DNA of 51,202 bases from Clostridiales bacterium (lineage in GTDB: Bacteria; Bacillota; Clostridia; Christensenellales; Aristaeellaceae), in NCBI GenBank assembly GCA_015056085.1, contig SVHA01000012.1, positions 1 to 51,202 of the forward strand. Direction: 5' to 3'. The notes under the pieces are model-generated. The model did not search any database and was not told the origin of the DNA. It saw only the letters and a program-made list of their open reading frames with translations. The first letter of the stretch is position 1. Every line of letters begins with the position of its first letter. The translations under genes were made by a program, and so were the position numbers. Below, piece after piece: positions 39,667 to 50,786 of the stretch.

Positions 39667-40296
39667 TTACTTCTCGCCAGTGCGGAACCGCCGGGACTTC
39701 CACAGATAAATCAGCAGGCCGCAACTGACCACCAGCAGCACCGCCAGCACCACCACGGGCATCGGGTCGCCGGTATCGGGGATTTCAGGCGCCGTATACT
39801 GGTTGACGAACACCGGAGCGAAAGCATCCACCGGGGCGCCGTTCACATACAGCCGGGTCTTCGCCTCGCCGGCATCCAGATAGACCTCCACGTCCAGCAG
39901 ATACTTCACGGTGGAGTAGGTCACGCCGGGGTGATTGCCCGCCTGCTCGGTGAGGATATAGCGGAAAGTCGTGCCGGACTGAGCGCCGTTGTAGCCCAGC
40001 GTCATCAGGGCAGCGCCGGTTTCATCAGACACAGCGGTCAGCACCTGGCCGTATTCATCCTTCAGGTGGAAGGTGAAGCCCTTGGGGGACAGTTCCGCCT
40101 CGCCGGTGTTCTTCACCTGCTTGGTGATGGCAATGTCCACCACAACCTCGTCCTGCAGGCCCGCCGGGGGCCGGAAGGTGTTGACCAGCGGCGCAGTTTC
40201 ACTGAAGATGTAACTCAGGGTGACGGGCACCGCCGCCGCCATGACCACCACGGCAGAAAGGAGCAGCGCCAGCTTTGCCCATTTGCGGATATTCAC
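39667..40296 (-). CDS. Pilin-like isopeptide-domain surface protein with sortase-type C-terminus
   Basis: A 209-residue secreted protein. The N-terminal hydrophobic segment (8-30) runs into YIFSETAPLVNTF, resembling the SipW-type signals of the upstream genes. The mature part resembles the Spy0128/FctA pilin domain (VVVDIAITKQVKNTG, FTFHLKDEYGQVL, GTTFRYILTEQ). The C-terminus is IPDTGD, a hydrophobic helix and KSRRFRTGEK, a sortase-type cell wall signal with Ile instead of Leu in LPxTG. The start is GTG with AAAGGAG. Last gene of the operon; no sortase gene is in the window. It could anchor fibres to the cell wall. Confidence 0.78.
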   Translation of the reverse strand: MNIRKWAKLALLLSAVVVMAAAVPVTLSYIFSETAPLVNTFRPPAGLQDEVVVDIAITKQVKNTGEAELSPKGFTFHLKDEYGQVLTAVSDETGAALMTLGYNGAQSGTTFRYILTEQAGNHPGVTYSTVKYLLDVEVYLDAGEAKTRLYVNGAPVDAFAPVFVNQYTAPEIPDTGDPMPVVVLAVLLVVSCGLLIYLWKSRRFRTGEK

Positions 40297-40323: not shown

Positions 40324-41049
40324 TTAGAAGGGGCGGAAATTTTCGTCCAGCGGGATGGCAGCGTTCAGCGCCTCGCTGTACGTCATCTGCTGATCGTTTT
40401 TCGTCTTGTCAACGAATGCGCTGGCCTGAATGGCCATGACCTTGAAGCGGAGGAAATCGCTGCCAAGGGTCTCCAACTGCTCGCTGGTGGTGCTCTTGTC
40501 CATGGCGATTTGCATCAGGGTCGGCGGGGTTGTCTCGCCAGGCTTCAGCGCCCTGGTGTATGTGAAGACGTGCAGGGTGTACTTTGCGCCGTCGATTTCG
40601 TAGTTCTTAATGGTTGTAATGTCGAAATCATCACTGTTTTTGAAGTTGAGGTAAACGAAGTTATTGTCCTTCATAGCGACAACGATGCGCAGATAGGCGT
40701 CATGGGTGCCATCTGTCGTTGCCGTGCTGTTGTTGGTGGCGCAGGTGAATCGATCCACCACGCCGGTGGCGGTCCACAGGCCTTCCGTGTTGGCAGTGGG
40801 CATACCGCTGATTTCATGAGACGGCGCCAGCACCTGACCACGGTCAATCGCAGCGCCGTTTTGCTGCGTGAAGACCAGATCCACCTTGAAGTTCTCGCTA
40901 TCAACGTCAGGGGTAGGATTCAGAATATTCTGTACGGTTCGGAAAAGGTTCTGTGCCAACTGTTCCGCTTGATTCGCCAGGGTGCCATTGACGTCCAGCA
41001 CCAGCACAAGGGCAACACAAACCAGAAGCACGGAAACAAATTTCTTCAC
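40324..41049 (-). CDS. TasA/camelysin-like secreted protein without the canonical SipW signal
   Basis: A 241-residue protein with an N-terminal hydrophobic segment (MKKFVSVLLVCVALVLVLDV). The GTLAYLTDTD pattern of its neighbours is absent; only a short GTLAN follows the helix. The body matches its operon partners: DAYLRIVVAMKDNNFVYL, ALKPGETTPPTLMQIAMDK, and a late LRFKVMAIQASAF resembling the conserved AxAIQxxxF motif. GTG 41049 was chosen because AGGAG lies 8 nt upstream; a GTG 6 bp earlier has poor spacing. Probably a structural or accessory matrix protein. Confidence 0.7.
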   Translation of the reverse strand: MKKFVSVLLVCVALVLVLDVNGTLANQAEQLAQNLFRTVQNILNPTPDVDSENFKVDLVFTQQNGAAIDRGQVLAPSHEISGMPTANTEGLWTATGVVDRFTCATNNSTATTDGTHDAYLRIVVAMKDNNFVYLNFKNSDDFDITTIKNYEIDGAKYTLHVFTYTRALKPGETTPPTLMQIAMDKSTTSEQLETLGSDFLRFKVMAIQASAFVDKTKNDQQMTYSEALNAAIPLDENFRPF

Positions 41050-41149
41050 GGGCACATCTCCTTTCTAAGCGTTGGTACACCGCGGTACCCGAAGGGCACA
41101 GGCTGACCCATGCCCTTGGGGTACCGCCCCCGAAGGGGCGGTGGGGAAA

Positions 41150-42679
41150 TTACTTAACAGTGGCGTAGTTGATGTAAGAAGCAGTCACCAGCTCGGCCAG
41201 ATTCTCAGCAGTCAGAGGCACGTTGTTGATGGTGCAGTTCTCAAAGGTGACAGCAGCACGGGGATCAATCGTGTAGTCTTCGCAGAAGTTGCAGCCCACG
41301 AACTCGGTGGGAGCGTAGGGACGGCAGTACTTGTAGCCGTTGCCATAACCGAATTCGCAGTCGATGAACTTAGCATCGCCCAGAGTGGCAGCGTAGCTGG
41401 TCCAGCCGTTGAAGGTGCAGTCAGTGGCGGTCAGGCCCTGGTTGAGGCCCTGGTCGCAGCTGATGGTGTAGGTGGTGCCGTCGATGGTCACATTCTCAAG
41501 GATAACACGCTCGGAATGAGTGCTGTTATGGTTGATGAAGATGCCACGGAAGGAACCGGTGACGGTCACGTCCTTGATGAGGCCGCCGGTGGTGTTGATA
41601 CCGGAGTCCCAGGTGCCGTCAGCGCCAGAAATGTCAATGGTGTTGCCATTGCCGTCGATGGTCTGGCCATTCTTGATATTGATGCCGGTGGTGCCATAAG
41701 CGTTGCTCATGTTGGCGGGATCAATGACGATCGGATTGGTAAGAACAACATCCTCACCATTTTCCAGCGCCTCAATCATTTCGTCGGCGGTGGAGGCCAC
41801 AGCGGGAGTAACGTACTCAGGAGGATTGTTGTCTTCGTTCTTTTCTCCGGGAGAGCCGACTTCCAGCTTGTTAAACCAAGCATTCAGGTTGGCGCTGGTG
41901 ACAGGGAAGGCTTCGTTCAGAGCGGTCTCGGCGTCAGCAAAGCCAGCGGCCTGCACAGCCTGAGACAGCACCAGCACGTTCAGCTTGCCTTCGGCATCGG
42001 CGATGTTTTTGATGGGGTAGGTCTCAGTGCCAACGGTCATGAAGTAGCCGTTTTCGTTCATGTCAACGCGCTTATCCATGAACACGCCGGTGAGGGAAGG
42101 ATAGGTGATAGCGCCGGGAGCCAGAGGCTCTTTGTGGGTGAACTGCCACACTTCGTACTCAACGCCGCCAACTTCAATGAAGAATTTGCCGGGGCCGGTG
42201 ACTTCTTCAAGATCCCAGTGAGTGTAGACGTCCTTGCAAAGGTTCCAGTGCAGCCACACATCGGCAGCAGCGTCATACTGACGCCAATGTTCGGTGCCGC
42301 CGGTGGGCAGAGCAACCAGAGTGCGGACATACGCATCGCTGTTGCCAGTGTTGGTCACGGTAACGATCTTGTCAATGTAGTTATTGTACCTATCATTAAT
42401 CGTGACCTGATACTCGCCAATCGTCACAGTGTCGGGAGTGTTTTCTTCACGATCGGTGTAGGGCACCAGCGTCTTGTCATTCTGGTAGGCTTCCAGCACG
42501 TTGGTGAAAACGCCGTCCTTTTCAACACGACGCTGCTCGTTCTGCACGATCTGCACATTGCCCAGCACCATGGTGTTTATGTCAGCGTCGGTGTCGGTCA
42601 GGTAAGCCAGGGTGCCACCCAGGCCCAGTGCCAGCGCCAGCACAAGGCTGACGATCATGGCAATTGTCCGCTTTTTCAT
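41150..42679 (-). CDS. TasA-like SipW-type secreted protein with beta-helix tail (A)
   Basis: A 509-residue secreted protein. The signal MKKRTIAMIVSLVLALALGL followed by GGTLAYLTDTDADINTMVLG is the SipW-processed class. A TasA/camelysin-like domain follows (~30-275) with NSDAYVRTLVAL, PLAPGAITYPSLTGVFMDKR and VLSQAVQAAGFADAETALNEAF. After a linker (GSPGEKNEDNNPP), the C-terminal ~200 residues form short repeats typical of a right-handed beta-helix (INIKNGQTIDGNGNTIDISG, VILENVTIDGTTYTI, AKFIDCEFG). There is no enzyme signature. The signal is almost identical to that of the upstream gene, so the pair are likely duplicates. Confidence 0.82.
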   Translation of the reverse strand: MKKRTIAMIVSLVLALALGLGGTLAYLTDTDADINTMVLGNVQIVQNEQRRVEKDGVFTNVLEAYQNDKTLVPYTDREENTPDTVTIGEYQVTINDRYNNYIDKIVTVTNTGNSDAYVRTLVALPTGGTEHWRQYDAAADVWLHWNLCKDVYTHWDLEEVTGPGKFFIEVGGVEYEVWQFTHKEPLAPGAITYPSLTGVFMDKRVDMNENGYFMTVGTETYPIKNIADAEGKLNVLVLSQAVQAAGFADAETALNEAFPVTSANLNAWFNKLEVGSPGEKNEDNNPPEYVTPAVASTADEMIEALENGEDVVLTNPIVIDPANMSNAYGTTGINIKNGQTIDGNGNTIDISGADGTWDSGINTTGGLIKDVTVTGSFRGIFINHNSTHSERVILENVTIDGTTYTISCDQGLNQGLTATDCTFNGWTSYAATLGDAKFIDCEFGYGNGYKYCRPYAPTEFVGCNFCEDYTIDPRAAVTFENCTINNVPLTAENLAELVTASYINYATVK

Positions 42680-42758: not shown

Positions 42759-44282
42759 TTACTTAGCAGAAACGGTCCAGACGCCTTCGTTTTCCACAGC
42801 CTGATAGCCTTCGGCAACCCACTTGGTAGGATCGAAGCCGAAGGTGCCGCCAGTGATGATGACGGTGCCGGGGCCCATGATGCCATCGGTGTAGCCAGAA
42901 CGAGTGGAAGCCTTGCCGAAGGTGCCGCCCTTCACATAGACGGTGGTGCCAGCTTCAGCATAGATGTAAGCGCGCTTCTGGTTCTGGGTACGGTCCCAAT
43001 CGAAGGTGCCGCCGTTGATGGTGATTTCAGTGCCTGCGCCCACGGCGTAGAACAGGTAGCGACCGGAGGTGCTGGTGGTCTTCATGCCGATATTGCCGCT
43101 GTTGAAGATCACCTTGGCGCCGTCGGCAGCAGCAATAGCACCGCCCTTGGCATTGACATTCACATCGTTCAGAACGGTGGTGCTGCCAGCACGGCCGATC
43201 ACGGCGTAGTCACCAGCAGTGCCGGATTCCAGTTCCATATCGGAGACGGTCATATCACCGAAGTTGTTGATGTACTGACCAACATAGTCACCACCGGAAA
43301 TGGTAGTTTCGCCGTGGTTGTTCAGACTGCCGCTCAGGGTGTTGCCATTCATGTTGATGTTGGCAGCAACGCCATCACCAATTTCGTGAACAGAGTCCTT
43401 TTCGCCAACGTCGCTGGTCAGGTACAGGTTGCCGCTGGTCTTCAGAGCATCGCTCAGTTCAGTTTCGGAACCAACGATGGTGGGCTCTTCATAGGTCACG
43501 CCGCCGTTTGCGCCCCACTGAGTGGCGTAGCCAGCATAGGCTTCCTTCACATCAGCAAAGCCTTCGGTCTGGATGGCGTAAGCAGCCACTAAGATCTTGG
43601 GATTCTTGTCTTCCTTGATGTTCCATGCAACAGGGGTCACAACGCCCTTATCAACCAGGAACATATTGCCTTCGGGATCGATGTCCACACGGGCATCCAT
43701 GTACACGTTGTACACGCTGGGCAGGGTCTCTTCACCGGGGGTCAGAGCCTTGTTGTACAGCAGCACATAGGTGTTGTAATCCACGCCGTCAATCTCTTCG
43801 GTGATGAAATTCTTGCCTTCGCCCAGGCTGTTGAACACGTTCCAGGTCATCTTGTTTTCCTTGATCTGGTCGGCTGTGATGCCTTCGGGCAGCAGGCCCT
43901 TGGCGACGGCGGTGTTCACGCGGTCTGCGGTCACATAGCCATCAGCGGTGGCGCCCAGGGGATTCCAGTGAATGATGTTTTTATCGGAGCCGATTTCAGT
44001 GCCCTGAACAGCATTGTCCAGCGCAGCGGGGATGGACCAGGTCATCCACACCCAGGCAGCGTGGTTGCCGGTGTTGCGGATGGTGGGAGTCTTTTCGATG
44101 TTGACGCCGGGGATCAGTTCGATGCCCTGCTCGAACTTTTCGGTCAGTTCGATGTCCACGTTGCCGATGGTGAACACGTTCACGTCGGAGTCGCGGTCAG
44201 TCAGGTAAGCCAGGGTGCCACCCAGGCCCATCGCCATGGCCAGCACAAGGCTAACGATCATGGCAATTGTGCGCTTTTTCAT
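42759..44282 (-). CDS. TasA-like SipW-type secreted protein with beta-helix tail (B)
   Basis: A 507-residue paralogue of the next gene. The signal is MKKRTIAMIVSLVLAMAMGL then GGTLAYLTDRDSDVNVFTIG. The TasA-like domain has TIRNTGNHAAWVWMTWSIP, ALTPGEETLPSVYNVYMDAR and VAAYAIQTEGFADVKEAYAG. The tail from ~285 is beta-helix-like (LSGSLNNHGETTISGGDYVG, TEITINGGTFDW, TTVYVKGGTFGKA, GTVIITGGTFGF). Repeated GGTF turns suggest regular coils. The ATG follows GAGAGGTAATTCCCC, similar to the downstream paralogue. Confidence 0.82.
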   Translation of the reverse strand: MKKRTIAMIVSLVLAMAMGLGGTLAYLTDRDSDVNVFTIGNVDIELTEKFEQGIELIPGVNIEKTPTIRNTGNHAAWVWMTWSIPAALDNAVQGTEIGSDKNIIHWNPLGATADGYVTADRVNTAVAKGLLPEGITADQIKENKMTWNVFNSLGEGKNFITEEIDGVDYNTYVLLYNKALTPGEETLPSVYNVYMDARVDIDPEGNMFLVDKGVVTPVAWNIKEDKNPKILVAAYAIQTEGFADVKEAYAGYATQWGANGGVTYEEPTIVGSETELSDALKTSGNLYLTSDVGEKDSVHEIGDGVAANINMNGNTLSGSLNNHGETTISGGDYVGQYINNFGDMTVSDMELESGTAGDYAVIGRAGSTTVLNDVNVNAKGGAIAAADGAKVIFNSGNIGMKTTSTSGRYLFYAVGAGTEITINGGTFDWDRTQNQKRAYIYAEAGTTVYVKGGTFGKASTRSGYTDGIMGPGTVIITGGTFGFDPTKWVAEGYQAVENEGVWTVSAK

Positions 44283-44372: not shown

Positions 44373-45011
44373 TCACTGCACAGCGGTGGCGTTGCCATTC
44401 AGAAGCGCCCATGCATCCGCCGGGGTCGCAGCCTCGGTCACGTGATCGTCCCGCTGCACGGCATAGGCCGTGAAAGTCAGCGTGGGATAATCCGCCTCAG
44501 TGAGGGGGGCCATCATGGCCAGGGTCACGCCGGTTTTCACCAGCACCTGGTCGCCTTCCAGCACCTGGAACATCTGGTCCGCATGGGTAGATTCAACCTT
44601 GCGATAATAGACGTTGTCCGTGCCATCCAGCGCCGTCCAGCCCTCTGCCACAGTGTAGGTCAGGAAGGTATCGAAATTGGCGGATTCATCCATGCGGATG
44701 AACAGCCAGCAATCCATGCTTCCGGCCAGCACCGTCACGCGGGGATCTTTGGCGATCACGGCGTCCACGTCCATCTCGTAGAGATTGGTGTTGGGGTCGC
44801 CGTCGTCATCCAGCAGGGTGTCGGTTTCGTCCAGCATGATCTGAATATCGCCATGGGTGAAGGTGTTCTCCGCCCGCTGACTGTTCATCAGAAATGCTGC
44901 CGTGCCGCCGATGGTGCCCGCTGTGATGAGGGCCATTGCCAACAGCAGAATCATGATCCTGCGGCCGGAAAGGTCCGCCAGCTTGAGGCAAGCGCGCTTC
45001 AGTCTGTACAA
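44373..45011 (-). CDS. TasA-like SipW-type secreted protein (C, small)
   Basis: A 212-residue protein from a TTG start with AGGAGG 9 nt upstream (MYRLKRACLKLADLSGRRIM). The signal helix ILLLAMALITAGTIGGTAAF is followed by LMNSQRAENTFTHGDIQIML, which fits the SipW-class pattern. An acidic loop LLDDDGDPNTNLYEMD may bind a metal. The late motif FTAYAVQRDDHVTEAATPADAWALL matches the AYAxQ...AW ending of TasA-like proteins. There is no tail domain, so it may be a plain fibre subunit. Confidence 0.78.
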   Translation of the reverse strand: MYRLKRACLKLADLSGRRIMILLLAMALITAGTIGGTAAFLMNSQRAENTFTHGDIQIMLDETDTLLDDDGDPNTNLYEMDVDAVIAKDPRVTVLAGSMDCWLFIRMDESANFDTFLTYTVAEGWTALDGTDNVYYRKVESTHADQMFQVLEGDQVLVKTGVTLAMMAPLTEADYPTLTFTAYAVQRDDHVTEAATPADAWALLNGNATAVQ

Positions 45012-45096: not shown

Positions 45097-46005
45097 TCAG
45101 TTGCCGTACTGGTTGCCGAAAGCAGTCCAGGCTTCGTCTTCGGTTTCGAAGGCAACGGTCTGGATGGCGTCGGCCACGACTTCCATTTCCAGGGTAGCCA
45201 GGGTCTTGAGCTGATCGCCGGTGAGCTCGCCGGGCACCGTGAAGGTGTCGAACAGGGCGGGCAGTTCCACGTCAGCGTTGGTGCCCTTGACGATTTCCTT
45301 GTAGCGGAATTCGTAGGTGACGGTGTCCGCAGTGGCGTCAGCCGCAGCGGCCTTCAGCGTCCAATCGGTGGTATTGACGTTGACGAACTTGCCCAGCAGG
45401 TCAGCGTCCTGAGCATCGGTGAAGATGGCCTTCAGGGCGGCGTAGCTGTTCAGCGTCACGCGGAAGCGGACGTAGCAGTCTTCGCTGTCAGCCACAACGG
45501 TCACCACGGGGTCCTTCTTGAAGGACTTGCCGGGCACCATGTTGTACTCGTTGCCCATGTCACGGGAAGGCTCGGCAGTGGCGGGATCCACGGTGACGGG
45601 GTCCTTGCCATTTTCGGTGACGGTGACCTTGCCACCCTCTTCGCCCTCGACGGTCACGGTGTTGCCATCACCATCGGTGACGGTGCCGGTCTCGCCGGGC
45701 TTGATGACGACGTCGTTCTGAGGATCATCGTCATTGTCGGGGGTAGGATCCACACGAATGGTGCCGTCAGGCTCCACGGACACCTCGATGTCGGCCTTGC
45801 CGTCATTATCGGTATCCACGGGGAACTTGGGGTTGCCGTCCTCGTCCACATCGGTTTCGGTCAGAGTGATCTGAACATCGCCGACGGTGAAGGTGTTGGT
45901 GACGGTCTGACTGCTGGTCAGGTAAGCCACCGTGCCAAACACGGACAGGGACATGGCAAGCACCAGACTCGTGACCAGGATCAGAGTGCGCTTGCTGAGT
46001 TTCAC
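45097..46005 (-). CDS. TasA-like SipW-type secreted protein with acidic insert (D)
   Basis: A 302-residue protein, GTG start with GGGAGGAA. The signal MKLSKRTLILVTSLVLAMSL runs into VFGTVAYLTSSQTVTNTFTV. An Asp/Gly/Thr-rich insert (~50-145) has VDTDNDGKADIEV, a calcium-loop-like pattern, and TVTDGDGNTVTVEG repeats. The C-terminal half is the TasA-like part (DCYVRFRVTLNSYAALKAI, MEVVADAIQTVAFETEDEAW). It is the first substrate gene after sipW, 58 bp downstream. Its best guess is the major fibre subunit, on position only. Confidence 0.78.
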   Translation of the reverse strand: MKLSKRTLILVTSLVLAMSLSVFGTVAYLTSSQTVTNTFTVGDVQITLTETDVDEDGNPKFPVDTDNDGKADIEVSVEPDGTIRVDPTPDNDDDPQNDVVIKPGETGTVTDGDGNTVTVEGEEGGKVTVTENGKDPVTVDPATAEPSRDMGNEYNMVPGKSFKKDPVVTVVADSEDCYVRFRVTLNSYAALKAIFTDAQDADLLGKFVNVNTTDWTLKAAAADATADTVTYEFRYKEIVKGTNADVELPALFDTFTVPGELTGDQLKTLATLEMEVVADAIQTVAFETEDEAWTAFGNQYGN

Positions 46006-46063
46006 CGGTTATTCCTCCCTTTATTGTAGATTCAGCGCTTCTCAAACGCTGGAAGTACCGGGG

Positions 46064-47146
46064 TTACTGTTGTCTGGGATGCCGGGGCTGCCGGTATCCC
46101 TGGGGAACCTGTTGCTGAAAGCCTTGCTGATACCCCTGTTGGGGAACCTGCTGGGGCTGAAAGCTCTGTTGGGGGTAGCCCTGCTGGGGCTGGGTGTACT
46201 GGGGCTGATATCCCTGCTGGGGAACCTGCTGTGCCTGCCGGGGCTGGCGCTGCTGGGTGTAACCCTGCTGGGGCATCTGCTGCTGGTACTGCTGGGGGTA
46301 GGGCTGCATCTGCTGATAGCCCTGCTGAGGATACCCTTGCTGGGGCATCTGCTGAACCTGCTGGGGATAGGGCTGATACCCTTGCTGGGGATAGCCCTGC
46401 TGAGGATACTGCTGGGGCATCTGCTGGAAGCCCTGCTGGTAACCCTGCCGGGGCATCTGCTGGAAGCCCTGCTGCTGGTAACCTTGCTGGGGGTATTGCT
46501 GCATCGGCTGATATCCCTGCTGGCCAGCGGGGGAATAACCCTGCTGCGCCGCCGGCTGCTGCTTCTGGGGAATCTTGATGCCTACCTTGGCCAGCAGTTC
46601 AACCACCTTGGGCGGCAACTGGAAGGACTTCTTGGCAGCGGAGGCGTTCTTCTTGTCCTTGTCATCGTCCTTGTCTGCGTAAATCAGCAGGGCGATGGCC
46701 AGCACGCCCACAATCAGCGTGACATAAATGCCGGGGGGATTCTGGATGTAATTGGCCACATTGCCCAGATGGGGAATGCAGAACGCCACGCGCCCGATGA
46801 TATCCGCCGGGCCCACCAGAGAGGCGTCAGCTTCGTCATTGGCGTCACCCTTGGTGCGGAAGCGGGTCGTGCCGCCTTCGGGCACGATTTCCACGATGCG
46901 GTGGGTGACCACGTTCTTGCCGCTGGAGAAGGTGATGACGTCCCGGAGCTGCAGCTCGGAAGGCTGCACGCTCTGCACATACACCAGAGAGCCCACCGGA
47001 TAAGACGGCGCCATGGAGCCGGTCAGCACGCCATAAATCTGGAAACCGAAAATGCGGATGCCGGAGATCAGAAACGCAAAAATGACAGCCACGCAAACCA
47101 GTGCTGTCGCTGCTGTCTTGATCAGTCCTTTCGTGCTTTGATTCAC
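46064..47146 (-). CDS. sipW: SipW-type signal peptidase I with Gln-rich C-terminal tail
   Basis: A 360-residue membrane peptidase of the ER/SipW (S26B) type, which cleaves TasA-class signal peptides. One helix lies at 9-30. The catalytic Ser44 is in [13 protein letters not shown], His82 in VVTHRIVEI replaces the Lys of ordinary type I peptidases, and the Asp region is [12 protein letters not shown] (98-109). A second helix spans 139-156. Residues ~195-360 are a low-complexity tail of QGY/QGF and PQQ repeats (about 16 QG[YF]), with no charged residues except a few Arg. Ordinary SipW proteins are under 200 residues, so this tail is unusual. GTG 47146 has AGGAGG 6 nt upstream. First gene of the operon. 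Confidence 0.9.
46070..46560. repeat. Repeat tract encoding the Gln-rich SipW tail
   Basis: An imperfect tandem tract rich in CTGCTGGGG / GGTAACCCTGCTG units on the plus strand, coding PQQGY-type repeats on the minus strand. Unit lengths vary, so repeat number may be unstable. Confidence 0.7.
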
Positions 47147-47222
47147 AGGACACCTCCTGCAAGATTTAAGAATTGTAAACCCGTCAAAAGGTGTACCTTT
47201 TGAATCTATCATACCACAACAT

Positions 47223-47251
47223 ATTGTACACCCAACTTCTAAAATATGCAA
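47223..47251 (-). promoter_or_regulatory. Leftward promoter into sipW, inside the candidate invertible segment
   Basis: On the minus strand TTGCAT (47251-47246), 17 nt, TACAAT (47228-47223). A TATGAT further downstream with TTGGGT at 16 nt is an alternative. The predicted start is just before the left site. Confidence 0.72.
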
Positions 47252-47355
47252 GGGTTTTTTGCCCATTTTATGAAGAAATTATAAGAAAATTTTTGAGTCG
47301 CCCTGCAATTTGAAGAAAATCTTGGAGAAAATGCCTTTATTTCACCTTACAGGTG

Positions 47356-47384
47356 TTGCAAATCCAGCGAAATTAAGGTATTAT
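47356..47384 (+). promoter_or_regulatory. Rightward promoter inside the candidate invertible segment
   Basis: TTGCAA (47356-47361), 17 nt, TATTAT (47379-47384). It points away from sipW into a short non-coding stretch and a terminator. Confidence 0.65.
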
Positions 47385-47449
47385 ATATGTAGTGTACTTT
47401 TTTGCAAAAGGTACACTTTTTGAATGCCATCACGCCATCCTCTCTTTCG

Positions 47450-47483
47450 CCGCCTGTGGATGCCGCGCCCGGGCGGTTTTTTT
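47450..47483 (+). terminator. Rightward terminator beyond the right inversion site
   Basis: CCGCC (47450-47454) pairs with GGCGG (47472-47476), followed by seven T. It would stop transcripts from the rightward promoter after ~90 nt. Confidence 0.7.
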
Positions 47484-47614
47484 GTTGCCTGCTTCGCTGA
47501 TTTTGCCGACAAGATAGAAAACACACGACATCTTGTGCCATTCCGTGTCGGATTGTGTCGGATTTTGCTTATGTCGTCATTGGGTTTTTCGTTTGTCTTT
47601 TGGAAGCATTTTCC

Positions 47615-48274
<660 letters not shown>

Positions 48275-48283
48275 TCACCTCAT

Positions 48284-48311
48284 AGCATAATCCAGCCAAA
48301 GGGGATTGCAA
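48284..48311 (-). promoter_or_regulatory. Promoter of the serine recombinase gene
   Basis: On the minus strand TTGCAA (48311-48306), 16 nt, TATGCT (48289-48284), about 60 bp before the start codon. Confidence 0.6.
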
Positions 48312-48352
48312 CCCCTGTTCCATCATCACGGATGCCTTCATCATTTCATCAC

Positions 48353-48387
48353 AAAAGATCCCCCGGGAGCCGCTTCGCTTCCGGGGG
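48353..48387 (-). terminator. Terminator of the membrane protein gene
   Basis: CCCCCGGAAGC / GGCTCCCGGGGG stem on the minus strand followed by ATCTTTTG. The T tract is short. Confidence 0.65.
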
Positions 48388-48408
48388 AATATCAGGCTGA
48401 TTCACTTG

Positions 48409-49158
48409 TCAGAGGGGATCCTCCCGCACTTCGTCCAGCACCTCTTCCAGCGGCGGAACGTCCTGCTGAGCCGGCCATTCTTCGGGCTCGTTCCAGTTAT
48501 CCAGCATGGTCACCTGCTGGGTGCGGGCCTTCTTCGGGGCGGATTTCACCGCCTTGGCGGGTTTCAGTTCTTCGGGCAGTTTCACCGTCTTCTTTTTGCC
48601 GATTTTTTCGCTGATAAATGCCAGCGTTTCCTCCCATGTGAAGGCGGAACAGGGCAGCGCCAGGCGCATCCACTGCGCCGGGGCATAGAAGAGGATCAGC
48701 AGTTTTTCCGGCCACAACTGCACCCGACGCACGTCCTTCCACTTCAGGTCGCTCGTCGCCACGCACACCGTGCCCTCGGCGTCCGCATTCTTCAGCAGCG
48801 CCGGGGATTTGAGGCGCATCAGCAGTTTCAGCCGGGTGGCGCAGGGCAGCATCACCCGCACATGGACGCCCTGATTGTCCACGGTGCACACCAGCACATC
48901 CTCGCCCTGCAGCAGGAAAACCAGCCACAAAATGGGCAAAAACATGGCCAGCAGCCCGGTCAAAACCATCAGCAGCGGGCCCTTGAGCATATCTTCCACG
49001 CCCTGGGTCCCCGCCGACAGCCCCTGCAGCGCCAGAATCATCACCAGCACCGCCGCCATCACGGGCAGCGTCAGGCGCAGCACGGCATTCCAGCACATCC
49101 AGTCCTTCGCCGGCATGTGGGGCACTTCCCACGTTTTGCCATAACCCGTCTTCGCCAT
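48409..49158 (-). CDS. Membrane protein of unknown function
   Basis: A 249-residue protein with two membrane helices near the N-terminus (~26-48 and ~62-86) and a soluble domain with VDNQGVHVRVMLP, LKWKDVRRVQLWPEKLLILF and an alternating-strand look. This layout is reminiscent of YcxB/PH-like membrane proteins, but the match is not firm. The C-terminus is Lys/Pro then Glu/Asp rich. ATG 49158 follows AAGGAGGGCGTGGC. It has its own promoter and terminator and sits between the recombinase and the last TasA-like gene. The role is unknown. Confidence 0.7.
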   Translation of the reverse strand: MAKTGYGKTWEVPHMPAKDWMCWNAVLRLTLPVMAAVLVMILALQGLSAGTQGVEDMLKGPLLMVLTGLLAMFLPILWLVFLLQGEDVLVCTVDNQGVHVRVMLPCATRLKLLMRLKSPALLKNADAEGTVCVATSDLKWKDVRRVQLWPEKLLILFYAPAQWMRLALPCSAFTWEETLAFISEKIGKKKTVKLPEELKPAKAVKSAPKKARTQQVTMLDNWNEPEEWPAQQDVPPLEEVLDEVREDPL

Positions 49159-49292: not shown

Positions 49293-50786
49293 TTAGTTGA
49301 AGGTGTACTTGTACACGCCAGCGGTAATGTAGTTACCGGTTTCGGTATCACGGCTGCCACCAGTCGCTTCGTACAGGCGAAGTTCAACGGTAATGGTCGT
49401 GCCGGCAGGCAGCTGCCCCGCGGTTTCGCTACCGACCATCTTTCCGCTCAGGTCAACTGCACCGCACAGGAAGCCAATGCCATCGTTGCCGTATTCGCAA
49501 AGTTCCCTGTAGGCAACGGTGATACCGCCATTGCCCATTGCATCCACCAGGCGAATTTCGGTGCCAGCCTTGATTTCCACATCGCTTGCCAGCAACACCC
49601 ACTTGTCGTTATTGAGAGAACACCAGGCATCATAGTAACCCGCCAAGCCAACGGAGTAAGCGGGAACATCCTTGTTCACCGACACCACGAAATCGGCGTG
49701 CCAGTCTGCCCATTCAGACACATCGCCCTCTTCGGCGGTCATGGTAGGCTCAAACTGGTAGAGTACATCCATCTTGACCTTACCAACATCAAAGCCCATT
49801 TTACTGTCAGTTGTGTCGATCAAAAGACCTTTTTCCACGACATCTACCTCACCATCTGCGCTCTTGATGGTGGTGTTTTCCGTCAGCGTGGTAACCTCGG
49901 CGAAGGGGGAGCCCTCCGGCGCGATCTCAGGAATCTCGATCTTAGCATTAACCCAGGGATGATTTTCAAGCACAGCAGGCTTGAAAGCAGCTTCCAGCGC
50001 AGTGTGAGCATCCGGGAAGTTGTTGGTCTGGCAAGCCTGAGTGAAAGCCAGCACTTCGTAGGTCTCACCCAGCAGTTCCATCTGCTCGTTGGTGGCGTTA
50101 TGCGTCATGACCACCTGCAGCAGAGAGGGGCGAGCGGTCTCGCCTGCGGGCAGGATGTACTTGTCCGTGCCCTTGTTCAGGGGATCCTTGTAAGTGCCGC
50201 AATAGATCAGGTAACGAGTGCCGTCAATTGTGTCATAGCCAACGCGCTCCCATTCATAGGCAGCATTGACATTCATCATGAATTCTTTGTCACTGCCTTC
50301 GCTGTAGTCCATTCCCTCAGGGCACTCAAAGGCCAGCCAGGTGCGGAAGTAGCAATCAGAAGCGCCCGTGTTCTTCACGAAGACGAACTTATCAACGACG
50401 CCCTTCAGACCATCGTCCCACAGACCATTGCCGTCCATCTCGACGCTGGTGTAATCGCCCCACTTGAACATCTCAGTCATCGTTTCAGCATTTCCGCTGC
50501 TGCCAGGCTTGGCGGTGTAGGGCTTATCAACAGAGGGATCTGCATAAGCAGGATACAGCGGCTTGCCCTCCACAAAGAGAACAAGATCGCCTTCCCCAGC
50601 TTCAGCGTTGTGAGCTACGTCAGTCTTACGCTGCAGCTCGAACTGGTCAATCTGCACATTGCCCAGCGTCATGACATTCACATCGCTGTCCGTGTCCGTC
50701 AGATAGGCCAAAGTTCCGCCCAGGCCCACTGCCAGAGACAGAACCAGACCCACCACCATGATCAGGGTCTTTTTGTTGAGTTTCAT
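49293..50786 (-). CDS. TasA-like SipW-type secreted protein (E, outside the operon)
   Basis: A 497-residue secreted protein. The signal MKLNKKTLIMVVGLVLSLAV then GLGGTLAYLTDTDSDVNVMT is clearly of the SipW class and close to that of the operon paralogues. The TasA-like part has FVFVKNTGASDCYFRTWLAFE, LPAGETARPSLLQVVMTHNA and VLAFTQACQTNNFPDAHTALEAAF. The C-terminal ~200 residues form a second beta-rich domain (MDVLYQFEPTMTAEEGD, EIRLVDAMGNGGITVAYREL, GTTITVELRLYEATGG). It is transcribed separately, from a promoter near 51185 with a ~390 nt leader holding a repeat-containing leader ORF and an attenuator. Confidence 0.82.
   Translation of the reverse strand: MKLNKKTLIMVVGLVLSLAVGLGGTLAYLTDTDSDVNVMTLGNVQIDQFELQRKTDVAHNAEAGEGDLVLFVEGKPLYPAYADPSVDKPYTAKPGSSGNAETMTEMFKWGDYTSVEMDGNGLWDDGLKGVVDKFVFVKNTGASDCYFRTWLAFECPEGMDYSEGSDKEFMMNVNAAYEWERVGYDTIDGTRYLIYCGTYKDPLNKGTDKYILPAGETARPSLLQVVMTHNATNEQMELLGETYEVLAFTQACQTNNFPDAHTALEAAFKPAVLENHPWVNAKIEIPEIAPEGSPFAEVTTLTENTTIKSADGEVDVVEKGLLIDTTDSKMGFDVGKVKMDVLYQFEPTMTAEEGDVSEWADWHADFVVSVNKDVPAYSVGLAGYYDAWCSLNNDKWVLLASDVEIKAGTEIRLVDAMGNGGITVAYRELCEYGNDGIGFLCGAVDLSGKMVGSETAGQLPAGTTITVELRLYEATGGSRDTETGNYITAGVYKYTFN

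Follow-up and report, generated by a model that had tools for sequence, protein, structure and literature searches.

The 240 bases at 47184-47423 very probably act as a phase switch with an invertible promoter, a piece of DNA lying before a run of matrix-protein genes that is most likely flipped by a small recombinase. The segment lies in a stretch of 51,202 nucleotides, referred to here as the window, which is the entire contig 5 of an assembly of 26 contigs that is 94.8% complete. The initial annotation had already read the region as an invertible promoter switch, and that reading gained support from the anatomy of the window, from conservation of the site pair beside homologous recombinases, from matched asymmetric cores and helical spacing of the sites, and from two natural inversions in relatives. 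From these observations we infer that inversion of the window copy takes place within its own host, that each of its two promoters is active, and that cells differ in matrix production. If so, heritable and reversible DNA flipping decides SipW/TasA-type matrix production in this bacterium, and recombinase-plus-promoter cassettes built to the same plan have come to stand in front of unrelated genes across related bacteria.

Anatomy of the probable switch region

Two palindromic sites of about 20 bp had been reported, identical at 18 of 20 positions in inverted orientation, carrying asymmetric GT cores that point in opposite directions and enclosing 200 bp of AT-rich DNA, and each of these features was recovered. 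The site proximal to sipW (47184-47203, + strand) reads TCAAAAGGTGTACCTTTTGA, has a GT core, and recurs in homologous loci; the site proximal to the recombinase gene (47404-47423) is the inverted copy, with its GT core on the - strand. The predicted invertible spacer between them (47204-47403, 200 bp) is 68.5% AT inside a window that is 40% AT, a composition matched by 1 of 2551 200-bp windows. From site to site the distance is 220 bp, which with a 10.5-bp turn amounts to 20.95 turns.

An inverted 19-nt pair with its arms 70-450 apart and no more than 1 mismatch appeared in none of 1000 local shuffles of 46000-48600. Across the whole 2.08-Mb assembly the 16-nt core AAAAGGTGTACCTTTT matched just the two window sites when up to 2 mismatches were allowed, with no third copy at that threshold. 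Allowing 3 mismatches added 11 more places, which is background level (a backward control pattern gave 34 and 32 hits versus 7 and 9). When the window switch DNA was searched directly in 40 genomes, it returned itself and one weak match in G012 (L002, E 9e-4). The window segment is seen in one orientation, in one assembly.

The recombinase gene had been placed about 190 bp from the segment, and we measured 191 bp between its stop codon and the right site. The gene (47615-48223, - strand) is codirectional with sipW and encodes a small serine recombinase of 202 aa, a predicted invertase that matches PF00239 with 99.4 bits over residues 4-147. Its nearest solved structures are Sin, a Gin-type DNA-invertase and gamma-delta resolvase, and a phmmer search matched residues 3-192 to a DNA-invertase structure chain. 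In the recombinase tree it occupies a long solitary branch (0.62), with at most 71% identity to switch-bearing relatives (L106).

On the other side, the GTG start of sipW, with a ribosome-binding site, lies at 47149, 34 bp from the left site. This first operon gene downstream of the switch (46064-47149, - strand) encodes a SipW-like signal peptidase, scoring 85.8 bits with the signal peptidase I model TIGR02228 (cut-off 51.85) and 96.9 bits with the SipW equivalog NF046067, under that model's cut-off of 190. The part at 46064-46580 encodes a long Gln/Pro/Tyr-rich repeat tail, and the SipW tails of sister genomes G002 and G004 are similar. The run continues on the - strand with a TasA/BsaA-like SipW-dependent protein (45097-46005; TIGR04088 25.7 bits; M73 E 4e-4, below its cut-off) and an exported-looking protein (44373-45011) without a family hit, which by position and length is the counterpart of 211-aa open reading frames in G002 and G004. 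Next come a SipW-dependent matrix-protein-like gene (42759-44282; TIGR04088 29.5; M73 7e-7), a SipW-dependent protein with a pectate-lyase-like adhesive region (41150-42679; TIGR04088 24.7; PF20585 24.0, just under the cut-off of 24.3), and a gene that looks exported by eye and has no family hit (40324-41055). At the far end lies a pilin-like FctA/Spy0128 domain protein (39667-40296; PF12892, 33 bits) whose C-terminal tail, IPDTG, resembles a sorting signal by eye. The SipW-dependent signal-peptide domain TIGR04088 was found in 4 of the 9 non-recombinase window proteins scanned, at 24.7-29.5 bits with a cut-off of 19. Another SipW-dependent protein gene is present at 49293-50786, beyond the recombinase gene.

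Site pairs and natural inversions beside homologous recombinases

Homologues of the recombinase (E 1e-30 or better) were present in 66 of the 308 family genomes. Counting the window and duplicates, 79 of 155 homologous loci had a site pair just 3' of that gene. These loci came in two sets. The first consisted of 28 family loci, the best 80 of at least 581 genome-contig relatives (a top slice, not a census), six sister-genome regions and the window; a search within 1.2 kb 3' of the gene, with the 2-bp core left free, gave a pair in 63 of its 115 loci, the window included. The second set of 40 (38 from the order and class and 2 viral contigs) gave 16, of which 3 repeat first-set loci. A simpler search recovered the pair in 64 of 108 loci, compared with 0-1 of 108 for five shuffled palindromes.

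Pair-bearing recombinases were spread over the tree and did not form one clade (27 label changes, versus 47.9 when labels were shuffled). Within the same genus, L053 of G011, whose protein is 64% identical, carries the same two sites directly downstream of its gene, at a distance of 150 bp from each other, and this switch precedes an unrelated secreted-looking protein with WSxWS motifs. L053 was the one locus with a pair among the six recombinase regions of two sister genomes (L053-L058), of which L055 ends early. G1002 belongs to the same class as the window, and its recombinase locus is close to that of Cuneatibacter, which makes Clostridia the most likely class.

The expectation that the sites are kept wherever the recombinase is kept held only in part: the other 76 of the 155 loci (52 of 115 and 24 of 40) have no recognisable pair, some of them because the contig ends within a few hundred bases. 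Among the no-pair rows of the tree, 35 of 56 fell in one weakly supported group and the other 21 were scattered. A de novo search for inverted repeats in 62 no-pair loci produced 12 hits, two of which were runs of N, against a control mean of 0. Five loci (L225, L211, L213, L152 and L077) have other inverted pairs in place of the main motif, for example CACGAAGTATACTTCGTG in L225. Judging from these pairs, site specificity may have diversified.

We also identified orthologues of the sipW operon in the sister genomes G002 and G004, which are 88 and 87% complete (SipW 67-69% identical over about 175 aa). Neither has a site pair by sipW or a close recombinase in the genome, and the switch is therefore not an inherent part of the sipW operon.

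The cores of the two sites agree in inverted register in 79 of 79 pairs, 77 of which are informative (L140 and L241 have a palindromic AT core), and the rarer cores TT, AG and AA are each common to both sites of their own locus. Spacing ran from 91 to 253 bp in the family, mostly in whole turns. Because related loci are not independent, p-values here and below are optimistic; with that proviso, first-set distances clustered around multiples of 10.5 bp (n=61 with L066 and L140 dropped, R 0.695, 0 of 5000 jittered nulls) and so did those of the second set (R 0.658, p 0.0018, n=16). For pooled analysis we reduced the 79 pairs to 72 by removing copies with a 100% identical spacer (L066, L119, L207, L232 and L233), L138, whose spacer is masked, and L140, which is doubtful and has an AT core; 62 of these 72 lay within 0.2 turn of an integer (10.5 bp per turn), with 28.8 expected. 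L129, in the recombinase group of L139 and L114, looks like a broken switch: the promoter end of its spacer is gone, and its 91 bp distance is off helical phase.

Two comparisons between relatives captured inversion itself. The recombinases of L107 (Cuneatibacter sp. NSJ-177) and L231 are 95% identical, and the two loci are colinear on the recombinase side through the first site (81.8% over 2155 bp). Their site-to-site segments are 95.8% identical over 168 bp in opposite orientation, and past the second site they agree for only a few bases, so that the target sides differ. In L103 and L158 the recombinase is colinear (72% protein identity), as is the target gene at its start, with 84.6% identity across 91 bp (target proteins 36%), while the promoter end of the spacer is inverted together with its site (82.6% over 86 bp). 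With two pairs of relatives inverted between the sites and colinear on the recombinase side, one of them on the target side too, we conclude that this recombinase family does invert DNA. No near-identical loci with opposite orientation were found beyond these two pairs; other close pairs (e.g. L115/L119, L105/L170, L114/L139 and L208/L157) have the same orientation.

Promoter arrangement and competing readings

A leftward promoter into sipW and a rightward promoter had been claimed for the spacer, and matches to both are present. The promoter toward sipW (47223-47251, - strand) is TTGCAT-17-TACAAT, with a -10 box that ends 20 nt from the 18-mer site. The promoter toward the recombinase (47356-47384, + strand) is TTGCAA-17-TATTAT; the two are exact mirror images about the segment centre, and the second would face sipW once inverted. 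We built a family promoter matrix from the 56 loci in which a single promoter was called and the gap was 17 nt; there the -10 box ends 19-22 nt from a site and the consensus is aTTGcAtTTt......tTTTaTGgTATAAT.

On this matrix the rightward promoter scored 20.8 and the leftward one 14.3. Opposite ends in the 56 loci reached -3.4 at best; part of this gap is built in, since the training loci had already been sorted by a related generic score. The generic score of the leftward promoter, 8.63, is modest, being reached by 1.2% of shuffles. A generic scan of the region gave 3 promoter-like sites versus 0.8 in shuffles, namely the rightward promoter and two overlapping leftward candidates at 47408-47380; TTGCAT/TACAAT was absent from that list and was picked out by the family-trained matrix.

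Promoter orientation was scored at the spacer ends, since a whole-spacer score proved muddled, with mononucleotide shuffles as the null. At a fixed threshold, the promoter pointed toward the recombinase, and hence away from the target, in 52 of 72 loci and toward the target in 8; 11 were uncalled, and the window alone had a called promoter at each end. The assemblies thus mostly show the presumed OFF state. The proposal that inversion exchanges the promoter is supported in particular by the singular status of the window and by the mirror positions of its two promoters.

Orientation was also reflected in the bases that flank the sites. Promoter-away loci tend to have locus-specific palindromic flanks beyond the 18-mer at both sites, with means of 4.98 and 4.12 of 6 positions complementary, compared with 3.13 for first-site flanks taken between different loci. 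The palindromic score exceeded the inverted-type score in 46 of these 52 loci, with 5 ties, and the sign was opposite in 7 of the 8 promoter-toward loci, the pattern expected from inverting the palindromic state. The association of promoter orientation with flank pattern (p 1.5e-5, 52 versus 8 loci) is what inversion predicts; the relation was weak when first correlated without classes (Spearman -0.27, p 0.035, n=60) and became clear only once the second set was added and the loci were classed. In L158 the same left and right hexamers flank both sites. Sense-strand hairpins at the two sites averaged -15.4 and -10.3 kcal/mol in promoter-away loci versus -9.3 and -6.8 in promoter-toward loci, which suggests that the crossover sites double as terminators in one state.

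The window lacks such palindromic arms, and its flanks are uninformative (palindromic 2 and inverted-type 3 of 12). It has instead a separate terminator-like hairpin at 47449-47477 (+ strand), followed by seven T residues to 47483, that would keep rightward transcripts from running antisense into the recombinase gene. A terminator had been annotated at 47450-47483, and the hairpin and its T-tract are indeed there, but by two counts the structure is no better than chance: its -17.1 kcal/mol corresponds to a z of just -1.18, and the region has 2 terminator-like sites versus 1.6 in shuffles, no excess. A further terminator-like hairpin of 12 pairs (47391-47417, + strand) includes part of the site and begins approximately at the expected transcript start of the rightward promoter.

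In the mechanism that we propose, the recombinase would pair the two sites, cut at the 2-bp GT cores and rejoin the 200-bp spacer reversed. With a -10 box 20 nt from the site at each spacer end, the flip would swap promoters at identical bases before the sipW/TasA-type operon, and the terminator-like hairpin at 47449-47483 would lie in the path of whichever promoter faces right. Most relatives have a promoter at one end only, and there the same flip would act as an ON/OFF switch; the window looks like an either/or version, with two levels or two signals.

The mirror-placed promoters at both ends lead us to promoter exchange as the preferred reading, with an ordinary ON/OFF switch as its main rival. 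In its most far-reaching form, the exchange reading holds that the window is a two-promoter exchange element, swapping distinct promoters at the same base before the matrix operon in a reversible choice of regulation and not an ON/OFF decision, and that it belongs to a widespread and apparently undescribed Clostridia family of portable serine-invertase switches. Sites in this family would lie whole turns apart, and in one-promoter members they would be embedded in hairpins, intact while the promoter faces away and scrambled once the segment inverts, which means that the sites may double as terminators. We give this complete proposal about an even chance of being right.

The ON/OFF alternative, in which only the rightward TTGCAA-17-TATTAT is real, the assembly caught the OFF state and the leftward match arose by chance, appears rather unlikely. 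It accords with the 52 of 60 single-promoter loci that face away from their target, and with the higher score of the rightward promoter on both the generic and the family scale. It leaves to coincidence a leftward match that falls on the exact mirror base, that scores far above the opposite ends of the 56 one-promoter loci (all -3.4 or lower), and whose generic score few shuffles attain.

We regard it as improbable that the recombinase is a resolvase left over from a former mobile element, with the window switch as a frozen relic. Relatives of the enzyme do occur in 388 plasmid records, all of them less than 60% identical (the 15 listed among them are all annotated just as recombinase family protein), L053 of G011 adjoins genes that by eye resemble mobilisation and large serine recombinase genes, and decay happens, as the lost promoter end and phase of L129 and the many loci without a pair attest. 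The window, however, shows an intact recombinase gene that aligns across the conserved catalytic region, two near-perfect sites close to a whole number of turns apart, and promoters at both spacer ends.

Least probable of all, and rejected, is that the near-palindromes are operators of a DNA-looping regulator acting over the sipW promoter without recombination: helically phased palindromes near promoters are typical of looping repressors, but these sites follow the recombinase gene across diverse targets, their asymmetric cores match in inverted register in each of the 77 informative pairs, they are involved in two natural inversions, and they are missing from the sipW orthologues of G002 and G004.

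Known switches, targets and viral copies

Like Hin/hix, the flagellar switch of Salmonella, whose hix sites are near-palindromic, inverted and built on a short core, the window element combines a small serine recombinase with two sites of this kind and a promoter that would be flipped. The Hin gene lies inside its invertible segment (PMC5903667), whereas the window-family recombinase gene lies outside a short one, and the host of the window is Clostridia-like. For Hin, a Fis-bound recombinational enhancer has been described (PMC3798978). Mpi of Bacteroides fragilis is likewise a serine invertase that works on invertible regions before surface genes (PMC5903667). It differs in acting on at least 13 scattered regions, where the window has one local pair in the genome, and the window recombinase scored 47.7 bits with the Mpi model NF009949, below the cut-off of 272.

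Other surface switches rely on tyrosine recombinases, among them FimB and FimE for fim and RecV for cwpV, the last encoded at another locus than cwpV. In Clostridioides difficile a phase switch of some 200 bp precedes the surface-protein gene cwpV, with a proposed model in which a terminator forms in the OFF transcript (PMC2784873), making it the nearest precedent for an inversion-made terminator. The window is similar in being a clostridial switch of about 200 bp, and the hairpin arms of its relatives echo the OFF-transcript terminator. It differs in that the cwpV segment is inverted by the tyrosine recombinase RecV and has its promoter outside (PMC2784873), whereas the family-type promoters of the window are inside the segment. 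The fim switch of E. coli also places an invertible promoter before a surface fibre operon (PMC2784873). Unlike the window, fim is an ON/OFF switch with one promoter. With the Bacillus sipW-tasA operon the window shares a SipW-type peptidase and SipW-dependent proteins, and it differs in having a recombinase and sites before sipW; we know of no DNA inversion in the Bacillus operon. The Hin-like invertible promoter is thus the known part of the design, and the two-ended promoter variant is the new part.

Titles and abstract openings on phase variation, DNA inversion, SipW and TasA named no such switch, and six variants of the site string were absent from the literature text searched, a body of text that covers few subscription papers. 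According to the hCom2 inverton paper (PMC11892184), inverton counts are low in Clostridia-like strains, and groups 139 and 145 are linked with tyrosine recombinases; the term serine recombinase does not occur in its main text. Inversions near signalling genes have been reported in Clostridia (PMC5903667). The wider literature search, again mostly outside subscription papers, showed no description of this switch family. Within that coverage, we provisionally consider this family of serine-invertase switches undescribed so far.

The genes placed behind the switches were diverse. We scanned 51 targets, covering L090-L169 except L119, L138, L140, L163 and loci with short or absent open reading frames; among the first 25 of 66 families, 6 targets had BspA-type leucine-rich repeats, and AMP-binding, Band-7, radical SAM, kinase and C39 transporter families were also present. 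By a crude rule, 27 of 62 first target genes had a signal-like N-terminus. Switches of the same design sit before many other genes in related gut bacteria, from leucine-rich-repeat surface proteins to a kinase, Band-7 proteins, a transporter and radical SAM enzymes. Because the site is conserved, sequence alone suffices to find such switches, and helical spacing together with flank scrambling should make orientation history readable from single assemblies.

Relatives of the recombinase were also found in viral contigs (14) and phages (4), and a motif scan of viral contigs returned 23 stretches. Among 37 viral loci, four had a convincing pair (L170, L184, L196 and L200), L170 being identical to L105. 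The other three are related IMG/VR contigs with a switch; in L196 no recombinase was found, and when it is aligned to L184, most of that gene is passed over but the sites are retained. Five other IMG/VR stretches (L185, L192, L195, L197 and L202) have a single 18-mer and no recombinase relative in the stretch, and several of their pairwise alignments break at or near the 18-mer.
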